Origin: Bdellovibrionia bacterium
Lineage (GTDB): Bacteria > Bdellovibrionota > Bdellovibrionia > Bdellovibrionales > JAGQZY01
Length of the DNA stretch: 64,000 nucleotides
Direction of reading: 5' to 3'
NCBI GenBank assembly: GCA_030424715.1
Contig: JAUHWH010000001.1
Coordinates: 682,001-746,000, forward strand
Shown: one piece after another, positions 9,008-26,844 of the stretch
Layout of the letters: each line of letters starts with the position of its first letter
Position numbering within the stretch: position 1 is the first letter of the stretch
Notes under the pieces: model-generated
Seen by the model: only the letters and a program-made list of their open reading frames with translations
Told to the model about the DNA's origin: nothing
Databases searched by the model: none
Translations under genes and position numbers: made by a program

Positions 9008-9141
9008 CCCATCAACGGTGCTCGGGGTGGCTTGACTGGAACACAGGCTCCTGCCTTTGCTGGGGTTTTTGCCCTTTGGGCAAAAAGCGCTTCACGCTTC
9101 CCAGAGGTTCCAATCAAGCCACCCCGAGCACCGTTGATGGG
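9008..9141. repeat. Long palindromic element IR1 (35-bp arms, 1 mismatch, structured 64-nt core)
   Basis: Left arm 9008-9042 CCCATCAACGGTGCTCGGGGTGGCTTGACTGGAAC; right arm 9107-9141 is its reverse complement except one base; core ACAGGCTCCTGCCTTTGCTGGGGTTTTTGCCCTTTGGGCAAAAAGCGCTTCACGCTTCCCAGAG. Confidence 0.95.
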
Positions 9142-12964: not shown

Positions 12965-15772
12965 CTAGAGTTTCAGATATTCTTTTAAATATCGAGCCGT
13001 ATGGGTCTTCTTTTTACAAAGGTCAAGAGGGGAGCCTTGGGCAACGATCTTGCCGCCATCGATACCGGCTTCTGGGCCCAAGTCTATTATATAGTCTGAT
13101 TGAGCCATGACCTCGAGGTTGTGTTCGATCAAAACAACACTACCGCCCGTTTCCACAATTTGGTGTAGGATGGCCATTAGCAGCTGCACCTCTCTAAAGT
13201 GTAAGCCTGTTGTCGGCTCATCCAGGATATAGAGAGTGGCCTTTTGATTGGTCTTATAAAGCTCGCGAGCAATCTTGATTCTCTGGGATTCGCCACCACT
13301 CAAACTTGAGGTGCTTTGTCCGAGTGTCAGGTAATCCAGTCCCACCTGCTTCAAGACGCTCAAGGGTTTACGAATATTTGGATACGACACGAAAAAGTCC
13401 ATGGCTTCAGCCACGGTAAGCTGTAGTACCTGATAGATGTTTTTACCGCGATAAGTGACCTCAAGAATCTCTTTGCGAAACTTATTGCCATCGCAAGATT
13501 GGCATATGGTCTTAATGTCATCCATAAAGACCATATCGATCAATTCGTAGCCTAAGCCTTTACAAACCGGGCAGCGGCCGCCATTGACGTTTAAAGAGAA
13601 TGTGCCAGGTGTGTAGCCCCGCTCTCGGCCCTTGAGCGTGGTGGCAAAAATGTCCCGGATGATGTCGTAGATTTTCAGATAGGTCGCGGGGTTGCTGCGG
13701 GCGGATTTGCCGACTGGCGATTGGTTGATGTGCAAAACATTTTTCAAATTTTCGGCACCGTTGAGTTTTTTGTAGGGTTCGCCTCGGGTGTAATCGATCC
13801 CGATTTCAGTCAATAGTGCGGGGTAAAGAGTCTCTGTAATCAGTGTCGACTTTCCAGAGCCACTGACCCCAGTGACCGTTACGATGCGATTGAGTGGAAT
13901 CTTTACCGAGGTGTTGCGTAAATTTCGCCCGGAGCAACCTTTAAGCTCCACAAAGTATTTATAGTCTTTAATATCAACCGGTCGCGGCGAATAGACCTGC
14001 TGTCTTGTGTTCGTCAAAAACATATTGGTGTTTGACTCTTTGCAGTCAATAAAAGCTTTTTGGTTGCCACTAAAGATGATTTCCCCACCTTTGAACCCTG
14101 AGCCCGGACCCATCTCGATAATATGGTCGCTTTCTTTAATGACGTCTTGGTCATGTTCAACCACAACCAGAGTATTACCCAACTCGTTGAGCGCTTTCAG
14201 TTGTTGAATCAACTGATCATTGTCACGTGGGTGTAGTCCGATTGTCGGTTCGTCGAGCACATAAAGGGCTTGTGTTAGTCCCATGCCTAACTGTTTCGCC
14301 AATAGGAGACGTTGAAACTCCCCGCCGGAAAGGCTTCGGGTTTGTCGTGATAGCGAAAGATAGTGCACTCCGATTTCATTGAGGAACCGCAGTCGAGAGG
14401 CTAGCTGTTCGTATATGTCTCGCACCATCTCTTTTTCGTACTCTGACAGGGTGAGATCCAAAATAAATTGGTATAGGTCTTTCAAACTCATTTCACAGAG
14501 ATCCGTGATCGACTTATCTTGAATCAAAAAGTTATTCGTGGTGGTCATCAGGCGTGAGCCTTCACAGACCGGACATTGAAAGGCTGTTTTAAAGCGCGAT
14601 AAAAAGACGCGCACATGCATCTTATATTTTTTAGTTTCCAGGTGGTCAAAGTAGCCCCGCACGCCATAAAACTGCGAGTTCCCATCCCAGAGGGTGTCGC
14701 GATGCTTCTTGGGGAGTTCAGTCCAAGGAGTGTCGAGACTGATTTTTTTTGACTTGCAATAAGTCATGAGTTTGCGTTTAGCCCGGGCCGCGCTCGGCAT
14801 AAAGAAAGGGCTAATAGCACCTTCTCGCAACGATAAGGTGGGGTTAGGTACGACCTTGGCTTCATCGAGATCCAGAGTGTTACCAAACCCGTTGCATTCG
14901 CCACAGGCTCCAACCGGAGAGTTGAAGCTAAACAGTTGCGGCGTCTTTTGGGGCAGTAGCTCATCACATGCCGAGCAGGACAAACTGTCACTAAACTTGA
15001 TGAAGTCATTATCGGTTGAGATAATTTGTGCCATACCTGAGGTTTGATTATTGTATTTGATAGACATCTCATAGGCTTGACCCATGGAATCCACAATGCG
15101 CCCACGATCGTCCTCGCGAATCGCCAAGCGATCAATTACGAGATAAAAATCTTTTTTGGGTAAATCTTTCACCTTGGTTTGGGGGCCGATTTCAATGGTG
15201 TTCATTTTCATCTTAGTTTTGGTGCGGCTTTGGTTGACCAAAATTCGGTTAAAGCCATCGGTCAATAGAGACTTAAGTAAATCAGTATTATTAAATCGTT
15301 TCTCTTTTTGTTTGATAAGGGTGCAAAGATAAACCCGTTGTCCGTCCCAATCGGCAATTAACTTATTAGCCGCTGATGTGGGTGAGTCGCTCAGTATGGG
15401 GCCATGCCCATTGGGGCAATAAGCGGTGGCCAGCTTGGCATAAAACAGTCGAAGGTATTCGATGATCTCAGATGTGGTGCCCACAGTAGAGCGACTGTTT
15501 TTAACGGTGTTCTTCTGCTCAAGGGCGATCGCTGGAGGAATGTTAGAAATGCTATCGAGCAAAGGTTTAGGGGCCTGGTTTAAAAACTGGCGAGCGTAAC
15601 TCGAGAGGCTTTCAATATAGCGACGCTGGCCTTCAGCAAAGAGCGTTTCAAAAGCCAAAGAGCTTTTCCCAGAACCACTGGGCCCACAGACCACAGTAAA
15701 AGAATTGATGGGTATCTTTACATCAATGTTCTTGAGGTTGTTTTGTCTAACGCCTTTGAGTTCAATAAACAT
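12965..15772 (-). CDS. uvrA: Excinuclease ABC subunit A (UvrA) or close paralog
   Basis: Two ABC cassettes (GPSGSGKSSLAFET, GVSGSGKSTLI; SLSGGEFQRLLLA, SLSGGESQRIKIA), CxxC zinc modules (CSACDELL...CGECNGFG; CPVCKGLGYEL...CQSCDG). Confidence 0.88.
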   Translation of the reverse strand: MFIELKGVRQNNLKNIDVKIPINSFTVVCGPSGSGKSSLAFETLFAEGQRRYIESLSSYARQFLNQAPKPLLDSISNIPPAIALEQKNTVKNSRSTVGTTSEIIEYLRLFYAKLATAYCPNGHGPILSDSPTSAANKLIADWDGQRVYLCTLIKQKEKRFNNTDLLKSLLTDGFNRILVNQSRTKTKMKMNTIEIGPQTKVKDLPKKDFYLVIDRLAIREDDRGRIVDSMGQAYEMSIKYNNQTSGMAQIISTDNDFIKFSDSLSCSACDELLPQKTPQLFSFNSPVGACGECNGFGNTLDLDEAKVVPNPTLSLREGAISPFFMPSAARAKRKLMTYCKSKKISLDTPWTELPKKHRDTLWDGNSQFYGVRGYFDHLETKKYKMHVRVFLSRFKTAFQCPVCEGSRLMTTTNNFLIQDKSITDLCEMSLKDLYQFILDLTLSEYEKEMVRDIYEQLASRLRFLNEIGVHYLSLSRQTRSLSGGEFQRLLLAKQLGMGLTQALYVLDEPTIGLHPRDNDQLIQQLKALNELGNTLVVVEHDQDVIKESDHIIEMGPGSGFKGGEIIFSGNQKAFIDCKESNTNMFLTNTRQQVYSPRPVDIKDYKYFVELKGCSGRNLRNTSVKIPLNRIVTVTGVSGSGKSTLITETLYPALLTEIGIDYTRGEPYKKLNGAENLKNVLHINQSPVGKSARSNPATYLKIYDIIRDIFATTLKGRERGYTPGTFSLNVNGGRCPVCKGLGYELIDMVFMDDIKTICQSCDGNKFRKEILEVTYRGKNIYQVLQLTVAEAMDFFVSYPNIRKPLSVLKQVGLDYLTLGQSTSSLSGGESQRIKIARELYKTNQKATLYILDEPTTGLHFREVQLLMAILHQIVETGGSVVLIEHNLEVMAQSDYIIDLGPEAGIDGGKIVAQGSPLDLCKKKTHTARYLKEYLKL

Positions 15773-15832: not shown

Positions 15833-15981
15833 TTCTAAATCTCAGATTCAAAGAACAAAACAAAGGGAGCCCATGGCTCCTGGGAGCGTGACGCGTTCAC
15901 GCCCAACGGGCGTGACCCAGGCAAGGCAGGAGCCGTGCCATGGGATGTCTTTGTTTTGTTCTTTGAATCTGAGATTTAGAA
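15833..15981. repeat. Long palindromic element IR2 (33-bp perfect arms, structured core)
   Basis: Left arm 15833-15865 TTCTAAATCTCAGATTCAAAGAACAAAACAAAG; right arm 15949-15981 exact reverse complement; core on minus strand GGCTCCTGCCTTGCCTGGGTCACGCCCGTTGGGCGTGAACGCGTCACGCTCCCAGGAGCC. Confidence 0.97.
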
Positions 15982-18660
15982 CTCTTCGCGGTAGAAGTCG
16001 GTTTTGTCCTCTTCTTCTTGTCGAGTGGTCTCTTCGGTGTTCTCGGTGCCAGGCTCAGTACCCGTCATAAAGGCTTGGCGAACCACCTCGTGACTGCGGG
16101 CTGTGGCTAAGTGGCCGGTTTCATTGTCGATGTTGGCAAACACGATGTTGTTTGGGATCGGGAAGTTCTCGGCCGGTGAGTCTTGCAGAGCTCCCTCCAT
16201 ATATTGCAACCAGATGGGTAAGGCGGCACGACTGCCGGCCTCTCCACGGCCCAAACTCTTTTCTTGATCAAAGCCGACCCATACGCCCGTGCTCAATTGC
16301 GGGGTGTAACCCATAAACCATGCATCATAGTAGCCATTGGTGGTTCCCGTCTTTCCAGCGACCTCGCGGTTCAGTCGCCGAGCGCGGCCACCGGTACCAC
16401 CGGACTCATTGACCACGGCTTGCAAAAGGGTGGTGGTTAAGAAGGCCGTTTGAGGAGAGATCAGCTGATCGGGGTCGTTAAAGAAAAAGGGCGAGACCTT
16501 TTGAGTGTCTTCTTCTTGGCTCATCATATTGGTTTCGTACTGTTGACGTTTCTGTGTGAACTCGTCTTTCACTTCGCCGATTTTTTCTTTGAAATGCAGA
16601 TCGAAGGAGACCTCTTGGGCGAGGATTTCTCCACGGCGGTCTTTTATTTCGTGGATAATGATCGGTTTGATACGCTGACCGAGCTTTGCGAATGTCGAGT
16701 AGACCTTGGTCATTTCATAAAGCGTGGCCCCGCTGGACCCCAGCGCCAATGACATATCCATATTGATCGGGCTAAAGATACCGAGCCGACGCGCATACTC
16801 TGACGCGAAGGACACACCGGTTTTTTCAAGAATGCGGATGGTGGGTGTGTTCAGCGACTTCTTAAGGGCGTTGCGAAGCAAGATGTCTCCAGTAAAGCGG
16901 CCTCCGTAATTGCCAGGTTTCCAAACCTTTTTCTCTTGGACTTCAGCGGACTCCTGAACCTCTTCGCCTTCTTTGACTTCTTTGGTCTCGCCTGTTTGTT
17001 GGTTGTAAACAATGGGGGCACCCATGATGGGGCTTGCAGGGGTGAGCCCCTTGTCCAGACCCGCGGCATAGAGGATGGGTTTGAAAGCCGACCCCGTTTG
17101 CCGAACCGCTTGGTAAGTGCGATTGAGTTTGGTTTTTCTAAAGTTAGAACCACCAACCATCGCAACAATATCATCGGTTTTGAGGTCATAAGAAATTAAA
17201 GCAGCTTCGACCTTTGGTTCTTGTTCTAGGGAAAGCTCGGCGTAGTCTTTTAGATCGTGTTTGAAGGTTTTTGAGACTTTGGCCTTCTTGGCGGTTTCAG
17301 CCACGATTTCCACATCAATAACATCTCCGACCTTTAAGGCTTCAGAGGGTTTTTTGATATGGAGGTAGTCACCATAAATTTTAGACGGATCGGGTTCGCG
17401 GGCCCAAGCCATTCGATCAAGAGGAATAATTCCCTGGGATTCGGCAAAGCGAACCATAACGATTTCATTGTCATCATCGACAGATGTTACTACCGCAGAG
17501 AGAATGTCCCCCTTTTTCGTGTAAGGCGGGATATTAGAAATGACGTTTCCTTTGTCATCTTTTTCTTGGTAGGCCTTAAACTCTCCGTATGCGTCGGTTG
17601 AGCCATCGGCAAACACTTGAAAGGTGGCGTAGGCATCATCGATCAATTGATTACGCTGTTTGGTTAAAAACCCCAGAGTGGCTTCTTTATCGTTCACATC
17701 GATATTGGTAATGGGGCCACGAAACCCTTGTCTCTTATCAAGATCTCGAAGGCCCTGGCGAACACTGGCTTGCGCTTTTTTCTGAGCTTCGAAATCGAGG
17801 CTTGAATAAATCCGGATCCCTTTGTCTAAGATCATGTCTTCACCGAGTTCTTTCACCAAGAGCTGACGAATGGTTTCAACAAAATAAGGGGCCACCTCTT
17901 TATATTTCTTTTTGCGATAGACGGTGAGAGTTTCATTTACAGCCACGTCGTGCTGCTCTTGGCTGATGCGTTCGGTTTCTAACATTCTTTTAAGCACATA
18001 TTTTTGTCTGATTTTTGCTCGATCAGGGTTTGCAACAATATTGTAAGCACTAGGCGCGGTGAGAGCCCCAGCAATAACGGCCATTTCAGCGAGGGTCAGG
18101 TCCTTCACCTTTTTTCTAAAAAAGGTTTCGGCGGCGGAGGCCACACCATAGGCGCCTTGGCCAAAGTAAATTTGGTTGAGATAGAGATAAAGGATCTCTT
18201 GCTTTGTCATATGGGTTTCCATACGACGGGCCATGACGGCTTCTTTTAACTTTCGGGTGTAGGTTTTTTCGGAACTCAAAAACAAAGTTCGAGCGGCTTG
18301 TTGAGTGATTGTCGATGCCCCTTGCGAACGCTCACCAGAGGTCAGGTTGGCAATAACCGCCCTGAAAATACCTTTGAAGTTAAACCCGTTGTGAGAATAG
18401 AAGTTAGAGTCCTCGGCTGCCAAAAAAGCATTGATGAGATCTTCGGGGATTTCTTCGATGGGGACGAGAGTTCGATTTTCACGATAGAACTCGCCGATTT
18501 TCTCTCCATTACGGGCGTAGACTTCACTGACCAGCAGCGGGTCATAGTCTTCTACGGAGAACAGGCTGGGCAGAGTCGCAGAGTAGTAAGAGTACAGACC
18601 CAGACCAGAGGCCAGGCCCACAAAACCAAGAACACAAAGAGCAATCAATATCTTTTTCAT
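15976..18660 (-). CDS. mrcA: Class A penicillin-binding protein 1A
   Basis: Transglycosylase motifs (AFLAAEDSNFYSHNGF, QGASTITQQAAR, EILYLYLNQIYFGQGAYGV) and transpeptidase motifs (KTGTTNGYYDAWFMGY). Confidence 0.92.
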   Translation of the reverse strand: MKKILIALCVLGFVGLASGLGLYSYYSATLPSLFSVEDYDPLLVSEVYARNGEKIGEFYRENRTLVPIEEIPEDLINAFLAAEDSNFYSHNGFNFKGIFRAVIANLTSGERSQGASTITQQAARTLFLSSEKTYTRKLKEAVMARRMETHMTKQEILYLYLNQIYFGQGAYGVASAAETFFRKKVKDLTLAEMAVIAGALTAPSAYNIVANPDRAKIRQKYVLKRMLETERISQEQHDVAVNETLTVYRKKKYKEVAPYFVETIRQLLVKELGEDMILDKGIRIYSSLDFEAQKKAQASVRQGLRDLDKRQGFRGPITNIDVNDKEATLGFLTKQRNQLIDDAYATFQVFADGSTDAYGEFKAYQEKDDKGNVISNIPPYTKKGDILSAVVTSVDDDNEIVMVRFAESQGIIPLDRMAWAREPDPSKIYGDYLHIKKPSEALKVGDVIDVEIVAETAKKAKVSKTFKHDLKDYAELSLEQEPKVEAALISYDLKTDDIVAMVGGSNFRKTKLNRTYQAVRQTGSAFKPILYAAGLDKGLTPASPIMGAPIVYNQQTGETKEVKEGEEVQESAEVQEKKVWKPGNYGGRFTGDILLRNALKKSLNTPTIRILEKTGVSFASEYARRLGIFSPINMDMSLALGSSGATLYEMTKVYSTFAKLGQRIKPIIIHEIKDRRGEILAQEVSFDLHFKEKIGEVKDEFTQKRQQYETNMMSQEEDTQKVSPFFFNDPDQLISPQTAFLTTTLLQAVVNESGGTGGRARRLNREVAGKTGTTNGYYDAWFMGYTPQLSTGVWVGFDQEKSLGRGEAGSRAALPIWLQYMEGALQDSPAENFPIPNNIVFANIDNETGHLATARSHEVVRQAFMTGTEPGTENTEETTRQEEEDKTDFYREEF

Positions 18661-20137: not shown

Positions 20138-20312
20138 CAAGTTCTGTGGTGCGTTTGTTGAATACAGAAATCCTATAGATATACAGACGGGGGCCGTCCC
20201 TGGCGACGGTGAGCAGGCCCGGTTACGATCCGGGAAGCCTGAAATCGCTATATAGCCACCCACCTATTGAAATCGGGATTTCGTGATTCACATGGCACTC
20301 ACAGGACGAGTT
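20138..20312 (+). ncRNA. ssrS: 6S RNA (SsrS)-like
   Basis: GCGACGGTGAGCAGGCCCGGTTACGATCCGGGAAGCCTGAAA closely parallels the E. coli 6S segment GGTGAGCATGCTCGG..CCGAGAAGCCTTAAA; closing stem GTTCTGTG(20141)/CACAGGAC(20300); T-run after 20310; length about 173 nt. Confidence 0.8.
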
Positions 20313-26603: not shown

Positions 26604-26644
26604 ACCACAAATTTACTGCACGAAGTCCAGTTGAACAACGACTG

Positions 26645-26786
26645 ATTTTTGGCCCTACGAAATTCTAACAAATACAGACCTCGAAAAGCGAGTTCCACAG
26701 CGAGAATTGCCAAAGGCAATTCAACGCGAGGACCTGTCTGAGTTTTTTGAGGTCTGTATTTGTTAGAATTTCGTAGGGCCAAAAAT
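26645..26786. repeat. Long palindromic element IR3 (38-bp perfect arms, structured core)
   Basis: Left arm 26645-26682 ATTTTTGGCCCTACGAAATTCTAACAAATACAGACCTC; right arm 26749-26786 exact reverse complement; core contains GAATTGCC-TTT-GGCAATTC hairpin (minus strand). Confidence 0.97.
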
Positions 26787-26844
26787 TAGCAAGATCAGCT
26801 TGGGGTGGTGGACCTTTTGTGGTGCATGGGGTAGTTTGGTGGGC

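Follow-up and report, generated by a model that had tools for sequence, protein, structure and literature searches.

Long palindromes with a shared core and site-specific arms in Bdellovibrionales: candidate mobile DNA hairpins

A long palindrome between mrcA and uvrA

The window, that is, the whole 64,000-nucleotide stretch of DNA that was analysed, contains a long palindromic element, IR2, in the gap between mrcA and uvrA (Table 1; genes of the window were named from Pfam matches and by reading). The inverted repeat (15833-15877 / 15937-15981) has arms of 45 nt each that are 93% complementary, separated by a spacer of 59 nt; pairing is perfect over the outer 33 bp and the three mismatches fall within the inner 12. 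Folded as DNA, the element reaches -61.1 kcal/mol (z = -16.3), a value equalled by none of 200 shuffled sequences. These results confirm the long palindrome of an initial annotation, which had been made from the letters alone. As that annotation had also stated, the last Phe codon of mrcA (15979-15981) and its stop codon (15976-15978) sit in the right, mrcA-side arm.

Table 1. Features of the window at and around the three palindromes
Feature	Position	Strand	Remarks
IR1, core family A	9008..9141	+	35-nt arms, one mismatch
IR1 core, family A	9046..9107	+	78.6 bits to model R1
uvrA	12965..15772 (start 15772)	-	named by Pfam and reading
IR2, whole palindromic element (core family A)	15833..15981	-	between mrcA and uvrA
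IR2 uvrA-side arm, outer 33 bp	15833..15865		perfect complement of the mrcA-side arm
IR2 core, family A	15876..15934	-	65.5 bits to model R1
Central variable hairpin of the IR2 core	15897..15915	-	TCACGCCC-GTT-GGGCGTGA on the minus strand
IR2 mrcA-side arm, outer 33 bp	15949..15981		includes the end of mrcA
mrcA, penicillin-binding protein 1A-like	15976..18660	-	Transgly and Transpeptidase domains (Pfam)
IR3, core family C	26642..26789	+	46-nt arms, 96% complementary
IR3 core, family C	26688..26743	+	ends CGAGTTC...TGTCTGAG

Two further palindromes, IR1 and IR3, lie with IR2 within 18 kb and share its plan; no other inverted repeat in 455 kb of the contig has arms exceeding 28 nt. IR3 has a HAD-like hydrolase gene on one side and a divergent gene on the other. 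The minus-strand core of IR2 aligns with the plus-strand core of IR1, and the central stem differs between the two on both sides while still pairing; both points had been made in the initial annotation and both hold.

The core belongs to families found in Bdellovibrionales

In a family A core, GGGCTCC(T/A)GCCC is followed by a stem, next comes a variable central hairpin, and after ACGCNTCACGC the stem is completed by its other half; GAC/GTC closes the whole. A covariance model of this core, R1, was built from five cores; a search with it across 142 genomes of the order detected family A in 26, with up to 20 copies per genome. When the exact core pattern was run against GTDB r220 (about 85,000 species genomes), it matched eight stretches, all of them titled Bdellovibrionales, Bdellovibrionia, Pseudobdellovibrionaceae or Bdellovibrio bacteriovorus strain kdesi; a scan of IMG/VR with the same pattern gave no match. 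The elements also had no match in plasmid and phage collections, and Rfam, at gathering and at permissive thresholds, returned nothing relevant at their positions. IR1 and IR2 each represent one copy of an order-wide family and are not a pair specific to the window. In the open-access literature we found no description of such elements in Bdellovibrio, and on this provisional basis the hairpin family is apparently undescribed.

Other cores follow the same plan. G003, a genome of the same bacterial family as the window's, carries further long palindromes with several core families and differing arms. In family C the two ends, CGAGTTC and TGTCTGAG, do not vary between the window and six elements of four other genomes (G003 included), and family B has seven copies in G003 and occurs in no other genome of that bacterial family. 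Cores may also stand in tandem arrays with a spacing of about 100 nt (L151, L150, L152, L129 and L153), the full inverted arms being mainly on the terminal unit.

The core moves without its arms

Arms with a score of at least 16 flank 72 of 81 family A copies, 28 of them perfectly, with a median length of 34 bp and a maximum of 104 bp; most of the remaining nine, weaker copies are decayed, have short arms or stand as inner units in tandem arrays. From one insertion to another these arms are mostly unrelated. In the 455 kb of the window's contig, no 13-mer from the IR1 or IR3 arms recurs away from its own locus, and the IR2 arms have one extra 13-mer match. The clearest cases are two pairs in G003. 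L136 and L137 have identical 62-nt cores (100%) and unrelated arms of 29 and 71 bp, and L139 and L140 likewise combine 100% identical cores with unrelated arms; the likeness of the arms is 46% and 54% in the two pairs, compared with 57% (sd 6%) for shuffled arms. Since identical cores carry unrelated arms, the core moves without them, the arms being formed or acquired site by site. Family B gives the same picture: its seven G003 copies have mutually unrelated arms, of 37-50 bp. The exception is a five-copy subgroup in G132 with fixed arms of about 50 bp, common to all five and set in unrelated flanks, which indicates that arms can also travel together with the core.

The arms are not random in composition. 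The 5' arm is T-rich in 73 of 82 copies (38% T, 22% A; p about 1e-13 if copies are taken as independent), which is not predicted by a simple copying of random flanks. A role of the arms as guides to other loci was considered and rejected, most arms in G003 having no 15-mer elsewhere in the sample. We likewise rejected the start of the arm at an intrinsic terminator as a general rule: it is clear in several family B copies and at the Bdellovibrio site described below, but it fails for family A, where it applies to only about 11% of copies.

Orthologous places without the palindromes

In G001, a genome of the same genus in which the region is syntenic, there is no palindrome at the orthologous places of IR1, IR2 or IR3. 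The mrcA-uvrA gap measures about 100 nt in G001 against 202 nt in the window, and the latter, minus one arm and the core, comes to 102 nt. The initial annotation had predicted that a pre-insertion site in close relatives would show the mrcA 3' end without the distal inverted copy. The comparison with G001 agrees as to the missing palindrome and the length of the gap; a clean nucleotide-level empty site was not found among the relatives compared, no genome being close enough for G085 or for the genus of G100. The mrcA-side arm of IR2 resembles, over a short stretch, the mrcA 3' end of G001 just past the stop codon (TAAATCTCAGATTC vs TAAATTTCAATCC). This similarity and the presence of the stop codon in the arm weakly favour the mrcA-side arm as the native one, and a microhomology junction could give the same look. 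The earlier view that one arm is an inverted copy of local sequence is borne out in so far as arms are locus-specific, and goes further than the data in taking the mrcA side as native and the other as copied.

The mrcA-uvrA gap of G003 contains a different perfect palindrome, coreless, at the mrcA stop. It is an ordinary MITE-like repeat unrelated to IR2, because a RAYT-like Y1 gene at another place in G003 has the same ends. It is one of a set of near-spacerless perfect palindromes of that genome (L056:14630-14701, L060:3421-3490 and L211; AAGGTTCCAGCTCCC..., AGGTACC..., AGGTAACAGTTCCC...) whose ends match the flanks of RAYT-like Y1 genes, all of them MITE-like repeats.

Core and arms change in a coupled manner

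Among 78 distinct family A copies, both sides change in 13 of the 14 core pairs. Standard pairs form in 98.3% of the paired cells, as opposed to 35-52% when the partners are slid; these percentages lean upward because the 78-copy alignment was fitted to the structure. The stem comprises 994 cells, of which 966 are Watson-Crick, 11 G-T and one A-C. A G-T share as low as this (about 1%) suggests folded single-strand DNA more than RNA. By eye, the first small hairpin has a loop (CTCC or TCCA) that changes together with the 3' end (GGAG or TGGA). Such covariation reflects selection on pairing or homogenisation of pairing and, alone, is no proof of RNA. The inner core ends are mostly GAC/GTC. In six G003 copies they are non-complementary, TTCGG(G)AC / GTCCYTC, and form a small internal loop between the core and perfect arms, whereas other copies have matching ends at this place. 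The family A cores of G098 and G100 (L285, L286, L287, L288, L290 and L291) have a loop of about 70 nt, near-constant in length and unconserved in sequence.

The arms could be followed at one element that four Bdellovibrio species carry at a shared position, flanked by a subtilase-like gene and the gene of a small protein ending in YYW (both named by reading); eight other Bdellovibrio species have no element there. A comparison of G063 with G031 shows a 2-nt indel and five substitutions in the arms, each matched in the opposite arm. Over the four species, all seven changed arm columns are compensated, and two core-adjacent mismatches persist as mismatches in all four. Arms drifting slowly apart, which the initial annotation had named as evidence against a mobile or fold-back origin, are the opposite of what we observed. 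Because their changes are coupled, the arms are taken to be kept paired by selection or by homogenisation. Template switching is known to make and keep perfect stems and to give multi-base coupled changes, including an indel (PMC8794818).

A proposed fold-back model of insertion

We propose, with moderate confidence, that IR1, IR2 and IR3 are non-autonomous mobile DNA hairpins of Bdellovibrionales that insert with fold-back copying of a flank and are afterwards subject to template switching. The mobility of the core, the locus-specific arms and their coupled evolution are shown by the sequences; the copying step, the single-strand DNA substrate and the joining are what we infer from them. The core would enter as a hairpin, and its single free 3' end would pair with its own base (GAC/GTC). 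A polymerase would then extend it along the adjacent host strand, over some 25-100 nt, until it stopped, and joining of the copied strand to the other flank would leave the core between the flank and its inverted copy. Template switching that takes place later within the hairpin would keep the arms identical while their sequence drifts. In our interpretation, the fold-back 3' end could be extended with or without trimming, leaving unmatched or matched core ends. An intrinsic terminator hairpin would block single-strand copying, and the arm would stop there; in several copies, though not as a rule, the arm ends exactly at such a hairpin. Judging from the ends, copying may take place in both directions, with the 3' flank as template in G003 and the 5' flank in G086 and G051.

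The mobile or fold-back origin raised at the outset is favoured by the identical cores with unrelated arms and by the absence of the palindromes from the orthologous places in G001. A further point in favour of fold-back comes from 517 kb sampled of G003, whose long palindromes are either core-bearing or transposase-linked, with one weak 25-nt case in neither group; coreless palindromes of unique sequence do not appear in it. We put forward more tentatively, and with less than even confidence, the broader notion that there is a class of mobile DNA in bacteria whose very insertion inverts and copies one host flank by self-primed fold-back synthesis, each new copy thereby being enclosed in a hairpin whose arms come from its own site. 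If true, this would be a new kind of bacterial non-autonomous repeat, with a conserved middle and host-derived inverted ends. It would also provide a natural record, made up of dozens of events across a predatory-bacterial order, of the birth and upkeep of perfect long hairpins in DNA, which are usually studied through single reporter mutations.

The alternative that fares best, and that we nevertheless regard as unlikely, is that the palindromes came first: they would be born by ordinary replication template switching, and the core would insert into them or replace their loop. One site speaks for this. Beside a c-di-GMP-I riboswitch (L105:1473-1590, L277:246-463, L284:292-401), the core belongs to family A in G100 and to family C in G098 and G099, and the place is empty in six other species, which suggests a preferred site or an exchange of cores. 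The homology between the arms of G098 and G100 is weak, however, 9 of 500 shuffles being as good. In the window's own genome, L132 has a whole element nested inside the central hairpin of another, as insertion into a palindrome would have it. G003 holds many perfect palindromes that derive from transposase-linked repeats, but those with a near-zero spacer carry no core. Since the palindromes of the G003 sample are cored or transposase-linked, no stock of unique coreless palindromes is seen as an insertion target.

Distinctly unlikely, in our view, is a structured RNA or a transcription-end element whose compensatory changes are held by selection. In its favour are the strong covariation of core and arms and the intrinsic terminator that directly adjoins some copies, among them L094, L096, L098 and the one at the Bdellovibrio site. 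Yet most copies have no T tract after the hairpin, and T runs are found at the start of the arm and not at its end. The orientations of the neighbouring genes (12 --, 10 ++, 9 +- and 5 -+) show no preference. There is no Rfam match, and neither the rare G-T pairs of the core stem nor the mismatches of the arms, 14 G-T against 30 A-C on the core strand, show the bias towards G-T of an RNA strand.

The search for an enzyme and comparison with known systems

Less probable still is that the core is mobilised as a REP/REPIN-like element by a Y1 (HUH) transposase related to RAYT or IS200/IS605. Y1 genes are present in 114 of the 142 genomes and in 21 of the 26 that bear the core, and the few G-T pairs would suit hairpins of single-strand DNA. 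Within Bdellovibrio, moreover, the best-scoring Y1 subtype (E <1e-55) is restricted to G063, G028, G017, G031 and G043, all core-bearing, and one copy in G023 adjoins such a Y1 gene. However, only one of the 20 Y1 loci inspected lies near a core, and 30 further Y1 loci had no significant core match. The window's own genome has neither a Y1 transposase nor a reverse transcriptase; no Y1 match was obtained in G000 (7 cores by model searches, the genome being sampled as stretches) or in G132 (16 cores), and over the 142 genomes the co-occurrence of Y1 or reverse transcriptase with the core shows no simple link. A candidate autonomous element, the 3.6 kb between inverted G132 copies, was rejected: by reading, it looks like an incoherent collection of an IS3-type transposase and RHS-like pieces. 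On our favoured reading, of mobile hairpins that copy a flank, the covariance signature of the core provides a precise handle for finding the responsible enzyme.

The elements nevertheless resemble the REP/REPIN sequences that accompany RAYT (PMC2817692, PMC3116915) in being short, mostly intergenic, hairpin-forming, non-autonomous, lineage-specific palindromes that change on both sides, and in the occurrence of Y1 genes in most genomes of the order. They differ in that no GTAG/CGTC-type head was identified at the hairpin and there is no conserved REP pair; the core, which recurs up to 20 times per genome, is not consistently linked to a Y1 gene, and it has long arms, different at each site, of a kind that REPs are not known to carry. 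attC sites of integrons are imperfect palindromes with a variable central hairpin that work as folded single-strand DNA. The present elements share the imperfect palindrome and the variable central hairpin; unlike attC, they show by eye no RYYYAAC/GTTRRRY end boxes, no gene cassettes were recognised, and the arms are locus-specific.

Prokaryotic MITEs (PMC10969869) are also small, non-autonomous, hairpin-forming repeats, but their terminal inverted repeats are conserved and part of the element, whereas in the present hairpins conservation lies inside and the outer repeats are specific to the locus; only the fixed-arm subgroup of G132 departs from this pattern. No direct target-site duplication is apparent by eye at the arm borders. 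Template-switch mutation at quasipalindromes (PMC8794818, PMC7202029) copies the reverse complement of nearby sequence, makes or mends stems and yields coupled multi-base changes, as found here in both arms, indel included; alone, it brings no shared core to many unrelated loci.

Chance, an assembly artefact or a composition effect has practically no weight and is refuted for the family: fragmented metagenome bins can mis-assemble long palindromes, but the elements occur in single-contig genomes, B. bacteriovorus strain kdesi among them, are conserved among species and have z-scores near -16, with nothing comparable in the rest of the 455 kb.

Two minor observations concern the window and its genome. 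At L134 of that genome, a perfect small hairpin is nested in the first loop of an element, and a 6S RNA lies in the window at 20138-20311 (Rfam RF00013, 57.8 bits).
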